Shown here piece by piece: positions 1-7,072 of a stretch of DNA of 7,072 bases (its first letter is position 1; each line of letters opens with the position of its first letter). The notes below the pieces were generated by a model. That model did no database searches and had not been told where the DNA came from. It worked only from the letters and a program-made list of their open reading frames with translations. A program made the translations under genes and the position numbers. The stretch lies in assembly GCA_027619675.1 (NCBI GenBank), contig JAQCHG010000082.1, forward strand, positions 1 through 7,072. The letters are read 5' to 3'. The DNA comes from Cyanobacteriota bacterium (GTDB taxonomy: Bacteria > Cyanobacteriota > Cyanobacteriia > Phormidesmidales > Phormidesmidaceae).

Positions 1-264
1 TGCCGCCATCAGTGCCTCTGATGTATGGGCCGAGAGACTCGCAATGGAAAATCCATTGTCTAAGGGACTGTAATCTAGCCCGAGGGTAAAAGGTAAAAAG
101 TGGGAATAAATGCTGCGATCGCGCCAAAGTTGCTCCCCTAGACGGAGGGCGTAATCGCCGACACCATCGGTATGGGGGGGCAAACGCGGCACAATTTGCA
201 AAATATCTACCGCCTGGGTGGGGGCTGATAGCTGGGAGGGAAGCAGTAAGTTTTTAGAGGTCAT
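1..264 (-). CDS. Glycosyltransferase, GT4-like, N-terminal fragment (runs off left edge)
   Basis: The first 88 codons of a gene are open from an ATG at 264-262 to the window edge with no stop. Residues 21-46 read ILQIVPRLPPHTDGVGDYAL and then RLGEQL. This is the first beta strand and nucleotide-sugar fold entrance typical of GT-B (GT4-like) glycosyltransferases, where a PPxxDGVGDYA loop follows the opening strand. Residues 77-86 (LSAHTSEALM) also resemble the next segment of cyanobacterial members. Such enzymes move a sugar from an activated donor onto a glycan, lipid or small-molecule acceptor, usually at the cytoplasmic face of the membrane. The catalytic C-terminal half is outside the window, so donor and acceptor cannot be judged. 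The frame is open upstream of the ATG for 12 codons, including one TTG, but the ATG places the family motif at a normal distance. No clear Shine-Dalgarno precedes it. It is codirectional with the NRPS operon, 90 bases after it; membership in that operon is unproven. Confidence 0.72.
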   Translation of the reverse strand, partial: MTSKNLLLPSQLSAPTQAVDILQIVPRLPPHTDGVGDYALRLGEQLWRDRSIYSHFLPFTLGLDYSPLDNGFSIASLSAHTSEALMAA

Positions 265-354
265 GGGGCAGATGCAAAACGACAATTCACAGGAAACAAA
301 AACTCAACAATACTATCGCCGTCAGCAGGCTTGAATACGCCTAGCCACCCGATA
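265..354. other. Intergenic gap between acyltransferase and glycosyltransferase
   Basis: These ninety bases separate the acyltransferase stop from the glycosyltransferase start. Read on the minus strand they hold only a weak inverted repeat (GCC, seven-base loop, GGC) about 15 bases before a TTTTT run, which is too weak to call a terminator. A TAGTAT box could be a -10 element, but no well-spaced -35 is convincing. I see no clear promoter, terminator or repeat, so it is undecided whether the glycosyltransferase is transcribed separately. Confidence 0.5.
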
Positions 355-1497: not shown

Positions 1498-4400
1498 TCA
1501 GAGTAGGGTTTTGAGCACATTGACCAAGGGGGGCAAGGACTGTTGGTTGAAAAGATTGCCCGTAAGGCCGGGGATGGTTTCAATCTGAACCGGGCCTGTC
1601 AGCACGGATGCCCACCCTTGCAAATAGCCATAACGCCACCGTTCTAAAAGGTGGCTGGGCTGGATCACCACAACGGGATCTGGATAGGGCTGGGGAATAT
1701 GGGTGTAGCGGGCCTTGCGACAGGCAGCTTCCGCGAAGGCATATCGCACCGCATAGGGCAAGGTTGCTGTTGGGGTAGCGGCGGGAGCACTGACCTGGGT
1801 ACTTGGGGAAGTGGGTGCTGGGGCCTGCACCTGCTGTTTCTGGCGATTAAAGGCGGCTTTTTGGCCTGCCCGTTGCCAGACCCCGCCCCACTGCCGCAGG
1901 AACGGTTGCCACCCTTGGCTGGGGCCATAGTAGTAGGCGGTTTTTTGCAGCCAAAAGCGTCCCCGATCCAGCCGTTGATAGATGCGGTAGAGCCAGTTAG
2001 GCACTGGCGGTTGGGGAGCGATGGCCGTTGGGGCGTAGGCATCGACGAGAGCCAACAACGCCACCGTTTCCCCCGCAGCCCGCAACTGTTGGGCGACAGC
2101 CAGCATCACCATGCCACCAAAGCAGTGGCCCGCCAGATAGTAAGGGCCGTGGGGCTGCACGGTGCGAATGTCGGCTACAGCCAAGGCTGCTAGTGTTTCA
2201 ACAGAGTCATCCTCCAAGGGCGATCCATTGAGGTCAGGCCGCTCTAAGGCGTAGAAAGGCTGGTCTGCTCCTAATTGGCGGGCAACGTTGGCCCAGGTGA
2301 GGGCATCGGCAGCGCCCCCATGGAAAAACAGGGGCGGACGGGTGCCCTGGGTTTGTATCGGCACCATACTCGTCCAGGTGGGAATCCAGTCCTCTTGGCG
2401 CAAGACCTGAGCTAGGGCCTCAACGGTGGGCGCTTGGAATAGCAGGTTGGGGGGGAGGTCTTGGTCAAAGCGACTTTGAATGTCGGCAAACAAGCGGATG
2501 GCGAGTAGGGAATAGCCCCCCAACTCAAAGAAGTTGTCGCGGATGCCGATGGGGTGGATCCCTAGGGTGGCTTCCCACAGTTCGACCAGTTGTTGTTCCA
2601 AGCCATCGCGGGGGGCGACAGGAGACGATCGCTGCGGTTGTTCGGCTCCACGGTCAACATCGAGGATCAGGGTGCCGCTGGCATGGCGGCGGCCAGTTTG
2701 TCCGGTGGGGTAGAGGGTGATCGCGTTCTGATCGGGGCTGAGTTGCAGGTTAATCGGCGATTCCGAAGTGACTGACAGTATCCCCTGAGATCGCCCCTGC
2801 TCCGTTAAATACACCTGGCCTGGAATGCCAGTAGGTAGCAGTTGGTGGTGGGAATCGAGCACCACTGCTTCTGGCCAGTCTGCCACCATTTGCTGCTGGG
2901 TGGCGGGGGACATCAGGGGTAGGCAATCAATGGGGGCATCTGGCTCCGCCACAATGCCTTCCAGCAGTGCCTGAAACTGATCAATTAAGTGCTGAATCGT
3001 GATCTGGTCGAATAGGTGGGTGTTGTAGACAAAGACTAGCCTTAGCCCTTGGTCGGTCTCCCGCATGGTGAGGGACAGATCGTAGCTGGTGGTGCCGATG
3101 TACACATAGCCAAAGAGGGAACCCAGGGTAACGCCGGGTAGATCGCATTGGGAGGTGATGCCCTGATTTCCCTTCCAAGGGGGGTTGAGGGCAAAAGCAG
3201 TTTGGAACAAAGGAGCCCCCCCCCGCACCCCATCCGGGCGCAGGTCTTCCACCAAACGCTCGAAGGGCAAATCCTGATGTTGGTAGGCGGCAAGGGAAAC
3301 CTGGCGCACCCGCTCTAGGATGTCGCGGAAACTGGGCACGACTTCAGGGTGGCTACCTGTTAAGGACGTGCGCAGAATCAAGGTATTACGGAGGTAGCCC
3401 AGCATGGTGTCTACCCCCGACTGTTGGCGATTGGCGATCGCCGCATTCACCACCAGATCGGTTTGACCAGTGTAGCGATAGAGCAACACTTTGAAAGCCG
3501 CTAGCAGAGTCATAAACAAGGTTGTACCTGCTCCCTGGCTGACTTCGTTGAGCCCGTCATTTAATGCCTTGGGCAACAGACGGGCACAGCGATCGCCTTG
3601 ATTAGAGGGTTGCAGGGGGCGGGGGCGATCGGTGGGTAGGGGCAACACAGGCAGCTTTTGGCTCTGCCCCTGCCAATAGTCCAGCAACCGTTCTAGGGTT
3701 TCCCCCTGGAGCTGCTGGCGCTGCCAATGGGCAAAGTCAGCATATTGAATGGTTAAGGGCGGCAACGGGTCTGGTTGCCCCTGGGCAAAGGCGGTGTAGA
3801 GGGCCACAAACTCTTGAAAGAAGCGATCTAGAGATGTGCCGTCGCAGATAATGCTGTGGAAATTCCACAGAATAATGTGGTTGTCAGTTTCCAGCGCTAG
3901 CAGGTGAAACCGCACCAACGGACCTTGGGCAAGGTCGAAGGGTAACTTGGCCAATTGGTTGGCGCGATCCTGAGCAACGGCTTCCCGATCCTCCGGGGGG
4001 ACATGGGTGAGGTCGATCCATTCCAAGGGCAGCGGCAGGCTCTCAGCGATCCGTTGGCACACTTGCCCCCCTTCCATAGCGAACGTGGTGCGCAGAATCT
4101 CATGGCGTTGCAGAATACGGGCCAAGCTCTGCTCCAATACCCCCCGATCCAACTGGCCTGTAAACCAATAGGCCATGGGCATGTTGAAGCCGGGGCTCTG
4201 GGGATTGAGCTGGGCTAGGGACCAAAACCGCTCTTGGGCAAAGGAGAGGGGTAGGGGATGCTGACGATCGACCGGGGTGAGGGTGGGAGCCGGGTCGGTG
4301 TCGGCGGCGACGGTTTTGAGAAAGGTGATGATAGCGGCTTTGCGATCGCGCAGTTCCCCCATTAGGTCTGGGGTTAGGGCTCCCTTAGGGGCTTTATAGC

Positions 4401-4518
4401 GGAGGCGATCGCCATCCATCCACACCTGTACCCCAGCCTGCCGCAGATCCGTTAACAGGTCAGTCAGGGGGCGCGAGGACGCTGCCGTCACGGCGGTTTC
4501 CAAGTTCAGGGTGTTCAC
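1498..4518 (-). CDS. Terminal NRPS protein, docking-C-(relic A)-T-TE, with substituted catalytic residues
   Basis: A 1006-residue protein in one intact frame. Order: TubC-type docking domain (about 16-70), condensation domain (86-545), remnant of an adenylation domain (550-628), carrier domain (636-707; Ser670 in LGGYSLL), thioesterase-like domain (718-1006). An ordinary terminal module condenses, activates, carries and releases. Here no complete A domain exists, so it cannot select and load its own amino acid. The C3 motif is HSIICDG (221-227), with Ser222 where the catalytic second His of HHxxxDG should be. The TE has GHCFGG (797-802, nucleophile Cys799) and Asp826, but reads PGLTGNLF (983-990) where PGxH with the triad His is expected. 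The GTG start overlaps the upstream stop (GTGA) and has a strong AGGAGG seven bases before it, so it is co-translated with the upstream NRPS. It could be a degenerate module, a release or recruitment platform, or one loaded in trans. Domain identity is near certain; activity is doubtful. Confidence 0.93.
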   Translation of the reverse strand: MNTLNLETAVTAASSRPLTDLLTDLRQAGVQVWMDGDRLRYKAPKGALTPDLMGELRDRKAAIITFLKTVAADTDPAPTLTPVDRQHPLPLSFAQERFWSLAQLNPQSPGFNMPMAYWFTGQLDRGVLEQSLARILQRHEILRTTFAMEGGQVCQRIAESLPLPLEWIDLTHVPPEDREAVAQDRANQLAKLPFDLAQGPLVRFHLLALETDNHIILWNFHSIICDGTSLDRFFQEFVALYTAFAQGQPDPLPPLTIQYADFAHWQRQQLQGETLERLLDYWQGQSQKLPVLPLPTDRPRPLQPSNQGDRCARLLPKALNDGLNEVSQGAGTTLFMTLLAAFKVLLYRYTGQTDLVVNAAIANRQQSGVDTMLGYLRNTLILRTSLTGSHPEVVPSFRDILERVRQVSLAAYQHQDLPFERLVEDLRPDGVRGGAPLFQTAFALNPPWKGNQGITSQCDLPGVTLGSLFGYVYIGTTSYDLSLTMRETDQGLRLVFVYNTHLFDQITIQHLIDQFQALLEGIVAEPDAPIDCLPLMSPATQQQMVADWPEAVVLDSHHQLLPTGIPGQVYLTEQGRSQGILSVTSESPINLQLSPDQNAITLYPTGQTGRRHASGTLILDVDRGAEQPQRSSPVAPRDGLEQQLVELWEATLGIHPIGIRDNFFELGGYSLLAIRLFADIQSRFDQDLPPNLLFQAPTVEALAQVLRQEDWIPTWTSMVPIQTQGTRPPLFFHGGAADALTWANVARQLGADQPFYALERPDLNGSPLEDDSVETLAALAVADIRTVQPHGPYYLAGHCFGGMVMLAVAQQLRAAGETVALLALVDAYAPTAIAPQPPVPNWLYRIYQRLDRGRFWLQKTAYYYGPSQGWQPFLRQWGGVWQRAGQKAAFNRQKQQVQAPAPTSPSTQVSAPAATPTATLPYAVRYAFAEAACRKARYTHIPQPYPDPVVVIQPSHLLERWRYGYLQGWASVLTGPVQIETIPGLTGNLFNQQSLPPLVNVLKTLL
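1501..2367 (-). other. Thioesterase-like domain with Cys nucleophile and no triad His
   Basis: Residues 718-1006 form an alpha/beta-hydrolase of the type I thioesterase family, which normally releases the finished chain by hydrolysis or cyclisation. Visible are PPLFFHGG (728-735) at the oxyanion strand, the nucleophile elbow AGHCFGG (796-802) with Cys799, and LLALVDA (821-827) with the likely triad Asp826. At the C-terminus, PGLTGNLF (983-990) takes the place of PGxHxxML, with Thr986 in the His position, and there is no His after residue 956. A Pro/Ala/Thr/Ser-rich stretch at about 898-920 interrupts the lid or late core region. Cys nucleophiles are known in some NRPS thioesterases, but loss of the His suggests slow, altered or absent activity. 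Confidence 0.85.
2398..2613 (-). other. Carrier (PCP/T) domain of the terminal protein
   Basis: Residues 636-707 run from LEQQLVELWEATLG to PTVEALAQVL. The phosphopantetheine attachment motif is DNFFELGGYSLLA, with Ser670 at bases 2509-2511. The residue before it is Tyr rather than the common His or Asp, which is within family variation. All features needed for a working carrier are visible, in contrast to the domains on both sides. Since its own A domain is lost, any amino-acid load would have to come from a trans A domain. Confidence 0.9.
2635..2871 (-). pseudogene. In-frame relic of an adenylation domain between C and carrier domains
   Basis: Residues 550-628 lie where an A domain of about 500 residues should be. 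They begin AVVLDSHHQLLPTGIPGQVY, which parallels the segment leading into core A6 (YVLDxxxxPxPxGVPGELY). They continue to LYPTGQTGRRHASGTLIL, which parallels core A7 and beyond (LYRTGDLGRxxxDGTLEFLGR). The spacing between the two is close to that in a normal A domain, so this is a collinear fragment. Cores A1-A5 (including the TSGSTGKPK loop) and the end of A8 through A10 (including the catalytic Lys) are absent. The Asp of the A7 TGD motif is Gln608. It cannot bind ATP or activate an amino acid. It is not a separate gene: the frame runs straight through into the carrier domain. Confidence 0.75.
2884..4263 (-). other. Condensation domain with HSxxxDG in place of HHxxxDG
   Basis: Residues 86-545 follow the C-domain motif series well. 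They include LSFAQERFW (91-99), RHEILRTTF (138-146), IQYADFAHWQR (257-267), GYLRNTLILR (374-383), HQDLPFERLVEDL (414-426) and YNTHLF (498-503). The exception is the active site, HSIICDG at 221-227 (bases 3838-3858). The second His of HHxxxDG, which is important for catalysis in most C domains, is Ser222 (codon AGC). The Asp226 and Gly227 are kept. The rest of the fold seems under constraint, so the domain may be structural, may use an altered mechanism, or may be newly inactivated. Confidence 0.85.
4309..4473 (-). other. TubC-type N-terminal docking domain of the terminal NRPS protein
   Basis: Residues 16-70 contain LLTDLRQAGVQVWMDGDRLR, then YKAPKGALTPDLMGEL and RDRKAAIITFL. This is the helix, beta-hairpin (GVxVWxxGDxLRYxAPKG) and two-helix pattern of the TubC N-terminal docking domain family. 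Such domains sit at the start of NRPS proteins and bind a short, usually acidic, C-terminal tail of the preceding protein. The hairpin carries Arg38, Arg40, Lys42 and Lys45, giving a basic face. The preceding protein ends in DDDFEEGEL, which fits as the partner. Confidence 0.88.
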
Positions 4519-7072
4519 AGTTCGCCCTCCTCAAAATCATCATCAGCGGCCATGGCAGGGGGAGCCGCTGCCCAACGGATGGTCTCAATGTGGGTGGCAA
4601 GCGTCGCCACAGTGGGATGTTCAAACAGGGCAGGCATCCGCAGGTTAATGGCAAATACCTGCTGCAACTGCACCACAATCTGCACCGCCAGCAGGGAGTG
4701 CCCCCCCAGATCAAAGAAGTTGTCGTGGCGGCCTACCGCGTTGACACCCAATACATCACACCAAATGGCGGCAACTTGCTGTTCTGTCTCGGTTTCCGGC
4801 ACCGCGAAACGGGTCTGGGCATTGGCATCCTTTTCTGGGCGAGGCAGTTGTTTCCGATCTACCTTGCCGTTCGGCGTCAGGGGTAAAGTTTCTAAGGTCA
4901 CCACTGCGGACGGCATCATGTATTCGGGCAGGCTTGCCTTCAAAAAGGCGCGGAGGTCACTGAGGGGCAACCCAGCATTATCGTCAGTCACAACGTAGGC
5001 GACTAAACGCTGATCCCCTGGACTGTCTTCCCGAGCAATGACAACGGACTGTTGAACCCCTGGATATTGATTGATAGCGGCTTCGACTTCCCCAGGTTCA
5101 ATGCGAAATCCTCTGAGGTTGATTTGGTGATCACACCGCCCCAGAAATTCCAGGTTTCCATCCATTAACCATCGCACTCGATCACCGGTGCGATAGAGCT
5201 TTTCGGAGGATCCAGCAAGGGGATGATTGACAAATCTTTCCGCACTCAATTCAGGTCTGTGATGGTATCCAGCAGCAACACCAGGGCCGCCAATAAAGAG
5301 TTCTCCTGGCACCCCAATAGGACAACATGCCTGCACAGCATCTAACACATAGAGCTGAACATTTTGAATTGGCTTGCCAATAGGTACCACCGGGTGATTT
5401 TGAGGAATGTCCTCTAAGCTTGCAATGGCGTAGCTTGAGCAGGCAATCACGGTTTCCGTTGGTCCATATTGGTTAAAGAAGCTGGCCTGCGGCAACAGCG
5501 TTTGCTTCCAGATGAGGACAAGATCGGTTCTAAGTTGCTCGCCTCCCATTACAACTAAGTGCGGAATCTGACTAATTTCATGTTGCCCGACTAACCCCAG
5601 AATGGTTTCTGCGTGAGCTGGGGTAATTTTGAAAACCCAGGGTTGAGTTTCGGTGCGGAGAGCTTGAATGAGGGTGTCTATCTCATGCTGTCCTGCTGGT
5701 AGCAGGGATGTCGTTTTTCCTGCGTACAGTGGCCCCAGCAATGTCGTCAAGGTTCCGTCAAAGGCCAATGATGAGCTGACAATTCCGCCTAGGGTTTGGG
5801 TGTAATAACGTTGGCTGGCATAGGCTAAATAGTTAGCTAAACCTCGATGGGTAATGTTGGCGGCTTTAGGCTTCCCTGTCGAGCCGGAGGTGTACATGAC
5901 GTAGGCCAAAGGATTGGCTGTCATGTCTGTTCCTAAGTTATGCGTGGGATACGATGACAACTCAGTCCAGTCAGGGTCGAGTTCCAATCGACGTAGGGAA
6001 GAATTGAGACTATTGTCTTGCCCATGGGCGGGTACTAAAAGCAGATCAACCCCGGCATCCGTCAGCATGTATTGCTGACGTTCAGGCGGATAGTCTGGGT
6101 CGATGGGGACATAGGCTGCACCCGCTTTGAGAATGCCTAAAATGCCCATCACCATCTGGGGGGAGCGCGGTATGCAGATGCCCACGAGACTGCCGATACC
6201 AATGCCCAAAGATTGCAAATGGTGGGCAAGTTGATTAGACCGGGCATTCACCTCGCCATAGGTCCAGGTTTGGCCTTCCCCAACCATGGCTAGGGCTGTC
6301 GGCGTTTGACTAGCCCATTGCTCAAACTTTTGATGAATCGGCAGATCTATCGCCTTGGGGTCACCTTGCTGATGCCACTGATTGAGTAAGGTTTGCTCTG
6401 ACTCAGGGAGTAACGGTAGCTGGGCGATCTCCCGTTGCGGGTTCTGAACCATGCCCCGCAATAGGGTTTCCAGTTCTGCCAGACGGCGCTGAATCGTGTC
6501 CCGCTGGAACAGGTTGCTGTTGTACTGGCACTCTAGGGTGACTTGGCCCTGGGCTTCTGTGGCGTTGATGAAAAGCTCAAAATTTTCAAAGGTGCGAGGG
6601 TTGGAGGCCAGAGTAGCGTCGAGTCTCTCAAACCGCAATTGCTGGGGATCCAGCGCTTGATCCAGGTTGAAGGTAACGGATACCAAGGGAATGCGACTGG
6701 CATCCCGAGGCAGCGCCAAGCGCCGCACCAAACTGCCAAAGGTGAACTGTTGGCGATCGTAGGCATCCAACAGGGCTGACCGCCGCCGTTGCAGGTAGGT
6801 TTGAACAGGCTGCTGGGGATCAATCTGGCTACGGATCGGCAGCAAGTTTACGCAGTGGCCCACCAGATGGTAGAGCCCTTGCGCCGCTTGCCCTGCGGCG
6901 GAAATACCCACCGTCAGATCCGCCTGCCCAGTCAGGCGATAGAGAAAAACCTCAAACCCTGCCAGCAGCGTGGTCATGAAGCTACAGCCATTGGCTTTGC
7001 CCAACTGCTTCAGTTGGCTAACCAGTTCCCCATCTAATTTCCAATCTTCGCGGGCGGAGTCGAAGGTGCGCA
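4515..7072 (-). CDS. NRPS, partial: C (C-terminal half)-A-T with acidic docking tail
   Basis: 851 codons are visible, and the frame is still open at the right edge. Numbering from the first whole codon: second half of a condensation domain (1 to about 207), adenylation domain (245-742), carrier domain (760-830, Ser792 in LGGHSLL), acidic tail DDDFEEGEL (843-851). It activates one amino acid as its adenylate, loads it on the carrier and condenses it with the incoming chain. A-domain cores are intact: WTYGEVN, LKAGAAYVPID, YTSGSTGKPK (393-402), NQYGPTE (533-539), YRTGD (626-630), GRCDHQINLRGFRIEPGEVE and NGKVDRKQL with the catalytic Lys736. Residues mapped by eye to the GrsA pocket read D-G-T-K-V-G-Q-I-A-K, close to published Asp/Asn-type codes. 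No epimerase is present. GC is about 50% in the A core against about 58% in the C domain. The protein must begin beyond the window; a TTG at 7004 is internal to the C domain. Confidence 0.95.
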   Translation of the reverse strand, partial: RTFDSAREDWKLDGELVSQLKQLGKANGCSFMTTLLAGFEVFLYRLTGQADLTVGISAAGQAAQGLYHLVGHCVNLLPIRSQIDPQQPVQTYLQRRRSALLDAYDRQQFTFGSLVRRLALPRDASRIPLVSVTFNLDQALDPQQLRFERLDATLASNPRTFENFELFINATEAQGQVTLECQYNSNLFQRDTIQRRLAELETLLRGMVQNPQREIAQLPLLPESEQTLLNQWHQQGDPKAIDLPIHQKFEQWASQTPTALAMVGEGQTWTYGEVNARSNQLAHHLQSLGIGIGSLVGICIPRSPQMVMGILGILKAGAAYVPIDPDYPPERQQYMLTDAGVDLLLVPAHGQDNSLNSSLRRLELDPDWTELSSYPTHNLGTDMTANPLAYVMYTSGSTGKPKAANITHRGLANYLAYASQRYYTQTLGGIVSSSLAFDGTLTTLLGPLYAGKTTSLLPAGQHEIDTLIQALRTETQPWVFKITPAHAETILGLVGQHEISQIPHLVVMGGEQLRTDLVLIWKQTLLPQASFFNQYGPTETVIACSSYAIASLEDIPQNHPVVPIGKPIQNVQLYVLDAVQACCPIGVPGELFIGGPGVAAGYHHRPELSAERFVNHPLAGSSEKLYRTGDRVRWLMDGNLEFLGRCDHQINLRGFRIEPGEVEAAINQYPGVQQSVVIAREDSPGDQRLVAYVVTDDNAGLPLSDLRAFLKASLPEYMMPSAVVTLETLPLTPNGKVDRKQLPRPEKDANAQTRFAVPETETEQQVAAIWCDVLGVNAVGRHDNFFDLGGHSLLAVQIVVQLQQVFAINLRMPALFEHPTVATLATHIETIRWAAAPPAMAADDDFEEGEL
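4518..4544 (-). other. Acidic C-terminal docking tail of the upstream NRPS
   Basis: The last nine residues are DDDFEEGEL, with six acidic residues out of nine, after an Ala/Pro-rich linker. Short acidic C-terminal motifs are the known binding partners of TubC-type docking domains, which form a basic beta-hairpin groove. The next protein begins with exactly that domain, so the two proteins are very probably consecutive in the assembly line. The pairing itself is inferred. Confidence 0.75.
4526..4531 (-). promoter_or_regulatory. Shine-Dalgarno deciding the GTG start at 4518
   Basis: On the minus strand AGGAGG lies seven bases before GTG at 4518-4516. The GTG overlaps the upstream TGA in the sequence GTGA. 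The site lies inside the last codons of the upstream NRPS (the acidic tail), so those bases serve both as coding and as ribosome-binding sequence. This supports the GTG over internal ATG codons and implies coupled translation of the two NRPS subunits in balanced amounts. Confidence 0.85.
4581..4793 (-). other. Carrier (PCP/T) domain of the upstream NRPS
   Basis: ETETEQQVAAIWCDVLGV leads to DNFFDLGGHSLLAVQ, whose Ser (bases 4695-4697) is the phosphopantetheine attachment site. The domain closes with LFEHPTVATLATHI. It is canonical in every visible position and is followed by only about 20 residues of linker and acidic tail. Confidence 0.93.
4845..6338 (-). other. Adenylation domain, Asp/Asn-like pocket
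   Basis: This is a full-length A domain with all ten cores recognisable. The specificity region lies at 5442-5759. SLAFDGTLTTLL supplies Asp, Gly and Thr (GrsA 235, 236, 239), VFKITPAH supplies Lys (278), LVVMGGEQL supplies Val and Gly (299, 301), FNQYGPTETVIA supplies Gln, Ile and Ala (322, 330, 331), and the A10 Lys is 517. Shared positions with the surfactin-type Asp code (D-L-T-K-V-G-H-I-G-K) are seven of ten. The three differences (Gly236, Gln322, Ala331) leave Asp, Asn or a modified relative open. Confidence 0.85.
6450..7072 (-). other. C-terminal half of a condensation domain, possibly of the hybrid (PKS-fed) type
   Basis: Visible residues 1 to about 207 hold ISAAGQAAQGLYHLVGHCVN with LLPIR (the C5 region). 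Then come DRQQFTFGSLVRRL where ordinary C domains have HQxLPFExLV, LPRDASRIPLVSVTFNLDQ, and YNSNLFQRDTIQRRL (C7). The HHxxxDG active site is outside the window. The AAGQ...LVGHCVNLLPxR and xQxFTFGSLV wording is a variant I associate from memory with C domains that follow polyketide modules or other unusual donors. That subtype call is inference. Confidence 0.7.

Follow-up and report, generated by a model that had tools for sequence, protein, structure and literature searches.

The window discussed here, the whole 7072-base stretch of cyanobacterial DNA that was analysed, carries on its minus strand a terminal nonribosomal peptide synthetase (NRPS) gene whose adenylation (A) domain has been reduced to a short stub. 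By profile comparison, residues 550–628 of the 1006-residue product are a remnant homologous to the A-domain cores A6–A7. The stub lies between a condensation (C) domain with an altered active-site motif and a carrier (T) domain that is followed by a thioesterase (TE) domain. An earlier note on this DNA had placed the remnant exactly, with residue 550 starting at 2871, residue 628 ending at 2635 and the GTG frame running from 4518 to 1498 (-). It had also framed well the options of a module that is skipped, loaded in trans or used for release, among which the sequence does not decide. We regard it as about an even proposition that the terminal subunit is a release station that adds no residue.

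The identity of the stub has been examined with two profiles. NCBIfam TIGR01733 aligns residues 550–617 to profile positions 303–372 of 409, with an E value of 0.0015 for a 127-residue piece and 0.041 for the entire protein. The match scores 17.4 bits, far below the cut-off of 317.4, and a full adenylation domain with cores A1–A10 is not present. When the 10-row stub alignment was compared by hhalign with an A-domain profile built from 60 sampled A domains, the score was 41.1 (probability 91, E value 1.1e-7, single comparison), while the highest score among 100 column-shuffled stub alignments was 11.9. The window stub by itself reached 21.5 bits; of 2000 letter shuffles 1022 were reported, and the best of these scored 5.5. 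The TIGR01733 and hhalign results bear out the likeness to A6–A7 that the earlier note had described. The match extends from before A6 (LPTGIPGQVYL, compared with xPxGVPGELYI) through A7 (YPTGQTGR, compared with YKTGDLAR) and ends before A8 (GTLIL, compared with GNIEFL). The A7 Asp is replaced by Gln in all 10 rows, and the alignment to A domains picks up again downstream of A10. A search with the Pfam AMP-binding family (PF00501), proposed in the same note, gave nothing among the Pfam matches of the 1006-residue protein at E<=5; this family was dropped as proof of the remnant, being negative and insensitive for so short a piece. Specificity codes were read, and no amino acid was assigned from them. 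An AlphaFold2 model made with an 18-row alignment has a mean pLDDT of 70.6 and a pTM of 0.51, and most of the C, T and TE domains are predicted at fair confidence. Residues 541–631 have pLDDT values of about 25–38 and no fold, values from which disorder and poor data are indistinguishable.

The same C-(short)-T-TE layout, which the earlier note had suggested searching for, was found in nine further homologues with 73–95% identity. Eight of these are 1002–1007 residues long and the ninth (P0009) is an 818-residue fragment. One homologue comes from the isolate Leptolyngbya sp. PCC 6406, where it is located on a 5.47-Mb contig. The stub alignment contains zero gap cells over 79 columns (nine rows counted; the tenth, P0009, judged by eye). 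The two stub blocks listed in the table are joined by a stretch with a mean pairwise identity of 61.7%; the corresponding value is 80.1% for the C domain and 96.2% for residues 637–708 of T, the most conserved part of the protein. The ratio of nonsynonymous to synonymous substitution rates (dN/dS, NG86) for the stub is 0.24, 0.22 and 0.27 in the three DNA pairs available among the window, PCC 6406 and SIOISBB, with bootstrap limits of 0.12–0.50, 0.10–0.40 and 0.12–0.55. Between the window and PCC 6406 the ratio is 0.155 for C, 0.000 for T and 0.134 for TE (residues 716–890), in line with the selection for keeping C, T and TE that had been supposed. Judged by these ratios, the stub is under purifying selection, as are the other domains. 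The word relic, used previously, is correct in that the piece is an A-domain remnant, but it is incomplete as a label, as the stub itself is constrained (93% identity in A6, 87% in A7, zero gaps). The layout and the purifying selection support an in-frame loss of most of the A domain with intact coding downstream. Two in-frame deletions, as the note had proposed, are the simplest reading, but they are undemonstrable for the window lineage because no close full-length relative was found. In a separate observation on the same pair (window 4518-1498, PCC 6406 L110:15115-18132), dS rises from 0.2 in C to 1.7 in TE, a contrast pointing to recombination at the TE end.

The C domain of the window does not have the canonical HHxxxDG motif. 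It reads HSIICDG, and Ser occupies the position of the second His in 10 of 10 homologues (HSIICDG, HSIVCDG or HSMVCDG). A motif table drawn up from 236 proteins together with the window and the long open frames in 114 loci has HH in 677 of 721 C-domain matches (a redundant set). In a 70-row tree, the sequences reading HS, HC or HR that had sufficient length, 19 in all, make up one side of a branch with support of 100/100. The altered group consists of S, C and R only; two HQ C domains (P0194, P0149), which occur with intact A domains, were excluded from it. In a repeat tree made for a set of 17 modules, described below, all 17 altered-motif C domains group again. The earlier note had spoken simply of C; a C domain is present, but its motif is altered and this alteration is common to one clade. 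A search for the altered motif as a DNA pattern covered 388 genomes of this class, 333 of them good, and found it in at least 10, including 7 good ones; the number is a lower bound since the pattern misses variants such as G041. The reversed pattern was found in none. It was considered that the altered C motif always accompanies a dead A domain. This held in the first set and was refuted by G106, G144 and G191, which have an intact A domain. The altered C domain is more conserved than the A domain among the relatives compared. What the second His of HHxxxDG does is under debate, and according to PMC11546977 some C domains do not depend on it. Because the literature leaves its role open, Ser in place of His is no proof that the altered C domain is dead.

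The A-domain loss that the earlier note described is real, and it belongs to a wider series of A-domain damage and trimming in related terminal modules that extends to a protein with only docking and TE domains. The state of the A domain was scored in 17 modules with the altered C domain. Left out of this set are the near-copies P0001–P0007 and P0009, with P0005 representing PCC 6406, and also SIOISBB, because its gene is split, and G300, whose frames are fragmentary; for L082 and L083 the set uses G041 and G057, which are longer stretches from the same genomes. The A domain is intact in three modules (G106, G144, G191; one genus), full-length and damaged in ten (G379, G217, G041, G057, P0046, P0064, P0066, P0090, P0121, L013) and trimmed in four (the window, PCC 6406, P0008 and Nostoc sp. 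T09, L007). The lesions at core A3 differ, with YETDLRKSTKG in P0064, YDSGTTDKLKP in P0046 and a deletion in P0121. Eight of the 10 damaged domains have lost the A10 Lys, which P0046 and G057 retain. The A domain of G057 is mildly damaged (A3 reads TSSSIGEPIG), yet it scores 430 bits against TIGR01733, which is over the cut-off. Parsimony on the C tree requires two separate trims, and these kept different parts of the domain: A6–A7 in Leptolyngbya and A8–A10 (Pfam AMP-binding_C) in Nostoc T09. The difference between Nostoc T09 and its sister G379 is one large in-frame gap of 428 codons; docking, C, T and TE domains are found in both, with identities of 89% for C, 77% for T and 54% for TE. In a quick tree the A domains of these modules split into two groups rather than forming one clade, therefore at least one A domain has been swapped, and a single ancestral inactivation is therefore neither established nor excluded. 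The carrier Ser is retained in 17 of 17 modules, and the docking domain TubC_N was found in 17 of 17 by Pfam or blastp. No description of this erosion series or module type was found among the titles and abstract openings listed for the openly accessible literature. Two side observations concern the position and the TE of these modules. In residues 1–1100 of P0121 the damaged module (altered C, damaged A, T) is internal and is followed by an intact C-A-T-TE, which means that the module is not always terminal. The C domains of G144 (L140:2309-6655 (-)) and G191 (L141:13181-17542) are 97% identical but their TE domains only 35%; by this comparison the TE has been replaced within a conserved terminal gene.

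The cluster that contains the terminal gene is best seen in PCC 6406. It comprises a gene for an A-T-ketosynthase (KS)-acyltransferase (AT)-acyl carrier protein (ACP)-aminotransferase protein (2275 aa), a TIGR04325 methyltransferase gene (280 aa), a C-A-T gene (1110 aa) and the terminal gene. A like order with other small genes is found in SIOISBB, G041, G057, G106, G144, G379, Nostoc T09 and Prochloron, although some of these stretches are cut at an edge and the first gene lies in two frames in SIOISBB and G379. The TIGR04325 methyltransferase occurs in the PCC 6406, G041 and Prochloron clusters, and a Cupin_8-like protein in those of SIOISBB and G057. A uniform cluster around the terminal gene was considered and is ruled out by G191 and G217, whose fetched stretches show no C-A-T gene upstream of it. 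The A domain of the terminal gene is intact in G191 and badly damaged in G217. In SIOISBB (L112–L114) frameshifts, either real or due to assembly errors, interrupt both the terminal gene (496 + 522 aa) and the polyketide synthase (PKS) gene (580 + 1749 aa). In the first module of G041 (L116:6490-14124 (-)) and G057 (L117:3122-10762), the A domain is preceded by no more than the C-terminal portion of a condensation domain, with which the module begins.

The subunit upstream of the terminal gene ends in DDDFEEGEL in the window. The EGEL tail is present in 9 of 11 upstream subunits, and the two Prochloron ones have EEGEV and EEGMF. TubC_N and the EGEL tail of its partner are predicted to form a docking pair of the TubC type. 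In the PCC 6406 genome (99% complete), just two A domains exceed the TIGR01733 cut-off, and both belong to the cluster's upstream modules; six other matches score <=167 bits, and no stand-alone A or A-T partner above the cut-off was found in this genome. A second cluster in Prochloron (L013) has as its terminal gene (14409-15434 (-)) P0237, a protein of 341 residues with TubC_N and TE only. The C, A and T domains are all absent from P0237, and its TE keeps Ser, Asp and His. One relative of P0237 was found in the protein database (P0238, 330 aa).

The TE of the window is matched by the PF00975 profile. By alignment it lacks the Ser-Asp-His triad, with Cys in place of Ser and the canonical His absent. 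The earlier note recorded the TE correctly but left both of these changes unremarked. Another residue in the window TE may replace the canonical His. GHCxGG together with PGLTGN or PGFxGN at the His position is found in the window, PCC 6406, P0012 and the T-TE ends of G025, G029, G033 and G018, and the SIOISBB TE likewise has GHCFGG and PGLTGNLF. A gene with a DGVGDY stretch comes after the TE gene in the seven loci with readable neighbours (window, PCC 6406, SIOISBB, G025, G029, G033, G018). It follows directly, but in the window an acyltransferase gene intervenes. The DGVGDY gene was not found by blastp in the fetched stretches, which vary in length, of nine loci with other TE types. Within the GHCxGG subfamily (window 1501-2373 (-), L119, L123, L124, L125), C-T without A in the same protein was observed for G025 (Pfam) and for G033 and G018 (blastp); G029 is cut ahead of its C domain. 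The Cys-nucleophile types GHC (Leptolyngbya) and GNC/GWC (G057, G106, G144, G191) were compared by eye only. P0012 has a docking end 81% identical and a TE 56–57% identical to those of the window. It combines these with an intact A domain and a C domain that has the usual HH, which marks it as a domain swap in the same terminal position.

Features of the window, with positions on the 7072-base stretch
Feature	Position	Strand	Basis
Terminal NRPS gene, 1006 aa, GTG start, TubC_N-altered C-A6/A7 stub-T-TE	1498..4518	(-)	frame, Pfam
TubC_N docking domain, residues 20-68	4315..4461	(-)	PF18563, E 1.4e-19
Altered condensation domain, residues 86-545	2884..4263	(-)	PF00668, E 3.9e-103
Active-site motif HSIICDG, residues 221-227, second His of HHxxxDG = Ser	3838..3858	(-)	alignments, motif table
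A-domain remnant, residues 550-628, before A6 to after A7; A1-A5 and A8-A10 absent	2635..2871	(-)	TIGR01733, hhalign
Stub block 1, A6-like, residues 560-582, 92.9% mean pairwise identity	2773..2841	(-)	stub alignment
Stub block 2, A7-like YPTGQ, residues 600-620, 86.9% mean pairwise identity; A7 Asp to Gln	2659..2721	(-)	alignment
Carrier (T) domain, residues 642-705, FFELGGYS; Ser670 at 2509-2511	2404..2595	(-)	PF00550, E 5.7e-13
Thioesterase domain, residues 716-1006, Pfam match from 731	1501..2373	(-)	PF00975, E 8e-19
TE residues: GHCFGG with Cys799 at 2122-2124; Asp826; PGLTGN at canonical His position	within 1501..2373	(-)	alignment
Upstream C-A-T gene, 851 aa, 5' end cut at contig edge, intact A domain	4515..7070	(-)	Pfam; TIGR01733, 406.5 bits
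Acyltransferase-3 gene, 378 aa	355..1491	(-)	PF01757, E 9.1e-28
Start of gene with DGVGDY stretch	1..285	(-)	common to neighbours of same TE type

The window is an entire contig (G000:C80) of a genome bin with 608 contigs that is 61.65% complete. On the minus strand the end of the C-A-T gene is followed by the 1006-residue gene, the acyltransferase-3 gene and the start of a further gene. The start of the 1006-residue gene overlaps the stop of the upstream C-A-T gene by four bases (GTGA). Relatives of the acyltransferase-3 (39% identity) are located in the Nostoc T09 and G379 clusters. The gene piece at the contig end matched no Pfam or NCBIfam family; its motif suggests that it may be glycosyltransferase-like. 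A contig of the same bin (G000:C332, L126:1646-3766) encodes A-T-KS with a KS piece 96% identical to that of PCC 6406, and it is probably the start of the same cluster.

The terminal subunit is predicted to be unable to adenylate because the cores that bind ATP and the amino acid are missing. Elongation by this module looks dispensable among its relatives because 10 of the 17 A domains are damaged and 4 are trimmed, by two separate trims. If the subunit is a release station, the upstream C-A-T subunit would hand the finished chain to it through docking of TubC_N with the EGEL tail. The chain would pass to T through the altered C domain (His to Ser) by thiol-to-thiol transfer, with no new amino acid, and the subunit's own TE would then release it. 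Alternatively, the TE could act directly on the upstream carrier. The stub would serve as a spacer or contact element between the altered C domain and T. Release without elongation is favoured because of the repeated A-domain damage, the two trims, the docking-TE protein of Prochloron and the finding of no spare A domain above the cut-off in PCC 6406, and docking is kept throughout. Several points weigh against it. The window TE has no canonical His, hence it may be unable to release the chain. In P0012 an intact C-A occurs together with a docking end and TE like those of the window, which means that elongating modules use this TE type as well. In the stretches fetched for G191 (L141:13181-17542) and G217 (L142:332-4507), the terminal C-A-T-TE gene has no C-A-T gene upstream, and the partner subunit is thus not always encoded next to it. 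An A domain too divergent to reach the TIGR01733 cut-off would have escaped notice in PCC 6406. The retention of the T Ser in all 17 modules and a T dN of 0 relative to PCC 6406 are as expected if T is still loaded. The altered C domain keeps the first His, Asp and Gly and accompanies intact A domains in G106, G144 and G191, and it may still condense. Published modules with no A domain or a dead one are reported to be loaded in trans (SyrE by SyrB1; albicidin, proposed; CmnI, shown; PMC8949500, PMC12400406).

The last three of these points, and the finding that some C domains do not depend on the second His (PMC11546977), are also what speaks for loading in trans. Module 1 or 2 of the line would supply the A domain that loads the terminal carrier, the altered C domain would still condense and a residue would be added. 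This is possible, although we consider it on balance unlikely. It requires the re-use of one of these two A domains in many separate lineages, no spare A domain scores above the TIGR01733 cut-off in PCC 6406, and the Prochloron docking-TE demonstrates that the relatives include a release subunit lacking C, A and T.

It is improbable that the altered C domain and the stub form a recruitment platform, like the X domain of glycopeptide synthetases, that brings the TIGR04325 methyltransferase or the Cupin_8-like protein to the carrier-bound chain. The conservation of the altered C domain relative to A and the presence of one or the other gene within the cluster are consistent with a platform, and X domains are C domains with a changed HHxxxDG (PMC8949500). 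The tailoring genes, however, differ from cluster to cluster, and the altered C domain retains its first His, Asp and Gly and stands beside intact A domains in three genomes. More improbable still is a decaying pseudogene whose frame happens to be open. The frameshift-split homologue of SIOISBB and the missing canonical His of the TE would fit such decay, but the frame is open in the window and in nine predicted homologues (eight full-length and the fragment P0009), and dN/dS is well below 1 in every domain including the stub. The PKS gene of SIOISBB is split too, therefore indel errors in its assembly are a possible cause. An assembly collapse or a two-gene chimera, which the earlier note had named as a danger and for which the small contig in a fragmented, incomplete bin might speak, can practically be set aside because nine homologues retain the layout, eight of them at 1002–1007 residues and one in an isolate genome on a 5.47-Mb contig.

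Modules with C, T and TE but no A domain are already known, and the window module would be one of these, as C, T and TE are present and A is predicted to be non-functional from its missing cores. Module 9 of SyrE (C-T-Te) is completed in trans by SyrB1 (A-T) and SyrC (PMC8949500). Both modules are terminal and have C, T and TE without A. The window differs in its A6–A7 stub, in HS for HH, in a TE with Cys and no canonical His, and in that PCC 6406 has no spare A domain above the cut-off. In the albicidin and cystobactamid systems an inactive in-line A domain is complemented by a stand-alone A-T (proposed for albicidin; PMC8949500). An eroded in-line A with the carrier kept is likewise found in P0046, P0064, P0066, P0090, P0121, G041, G217, G379 and L013, but the A domain of the window is physically trimmed and a stand-alone A-T was not found for PCC 6406. 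CmnI of capreomycin synthesis has T and C domains without A and is loaded by CmnA-A1 (PMC12400406). It resembles the window module as an A-less module with T and C. CmnI is not known to carry a TE. The X domains of glycopeptide synthetases are similar in their changed HHxxxDG and their position near a terminal TE (PMC8949500), but the altered C domain keeps the first His, Asp and Gly, precedes its own T and pairs with an intact A in three relatives. Microginin synthetase (mic) starts with a fatty acyl-AMP ligase (FAAL) and a separate ACP, followed by a KS-AT-ACP-aminotransferase module, C-A-T modules and TE (PMC12250027). The order from the KS-AT-ACP-aminotransferase module to the C-A-T modules and TE is shared. 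An assignment to microginin was rejected since there is no FAAL and module 1 of PCC 6406 opens with an A domain of the amino-acid type (TIGR01733, 447 bits).

Non-elongating KS0 modules of trans-AT PKSs add no unit; the catalytic His of the condensing domain is changed and the carrier is kept. It may tentatively be suggested, with more doubt than confidence, that C0-A0-T-TE modules are a class of non-elongating terminal NRPS modules and the counterpart of KS0 modules, in which a C domain with His changed to Ser or Cys transfers the chain from thiol to thiol. KS0 modules belong to PKSs whereas the modules described here belong to NRPSs, and chain passage through the altered C domain is a proposal. 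In such a class an idle A domain would have been eroded repeatedly, giving the full-length wreck, the A8–A10 stub, the A6–A7 stub and finally docking and TE alone.

These modules provide natural before-and-after pairs for the in-frame removal of an A domain, and Nostoc sp. T09 and G379 are closely comparable sisters that differ by 428 codons. The sites at which nature has excised an A domain with the frame preserved are relevant to NRPS engineering. If no residue is added, the module would stand as a defined non-elongating module at the end of an NRPS, and C domains with His changed to Ser or Cys would bear on the debate about the second His of HHxxxDG.

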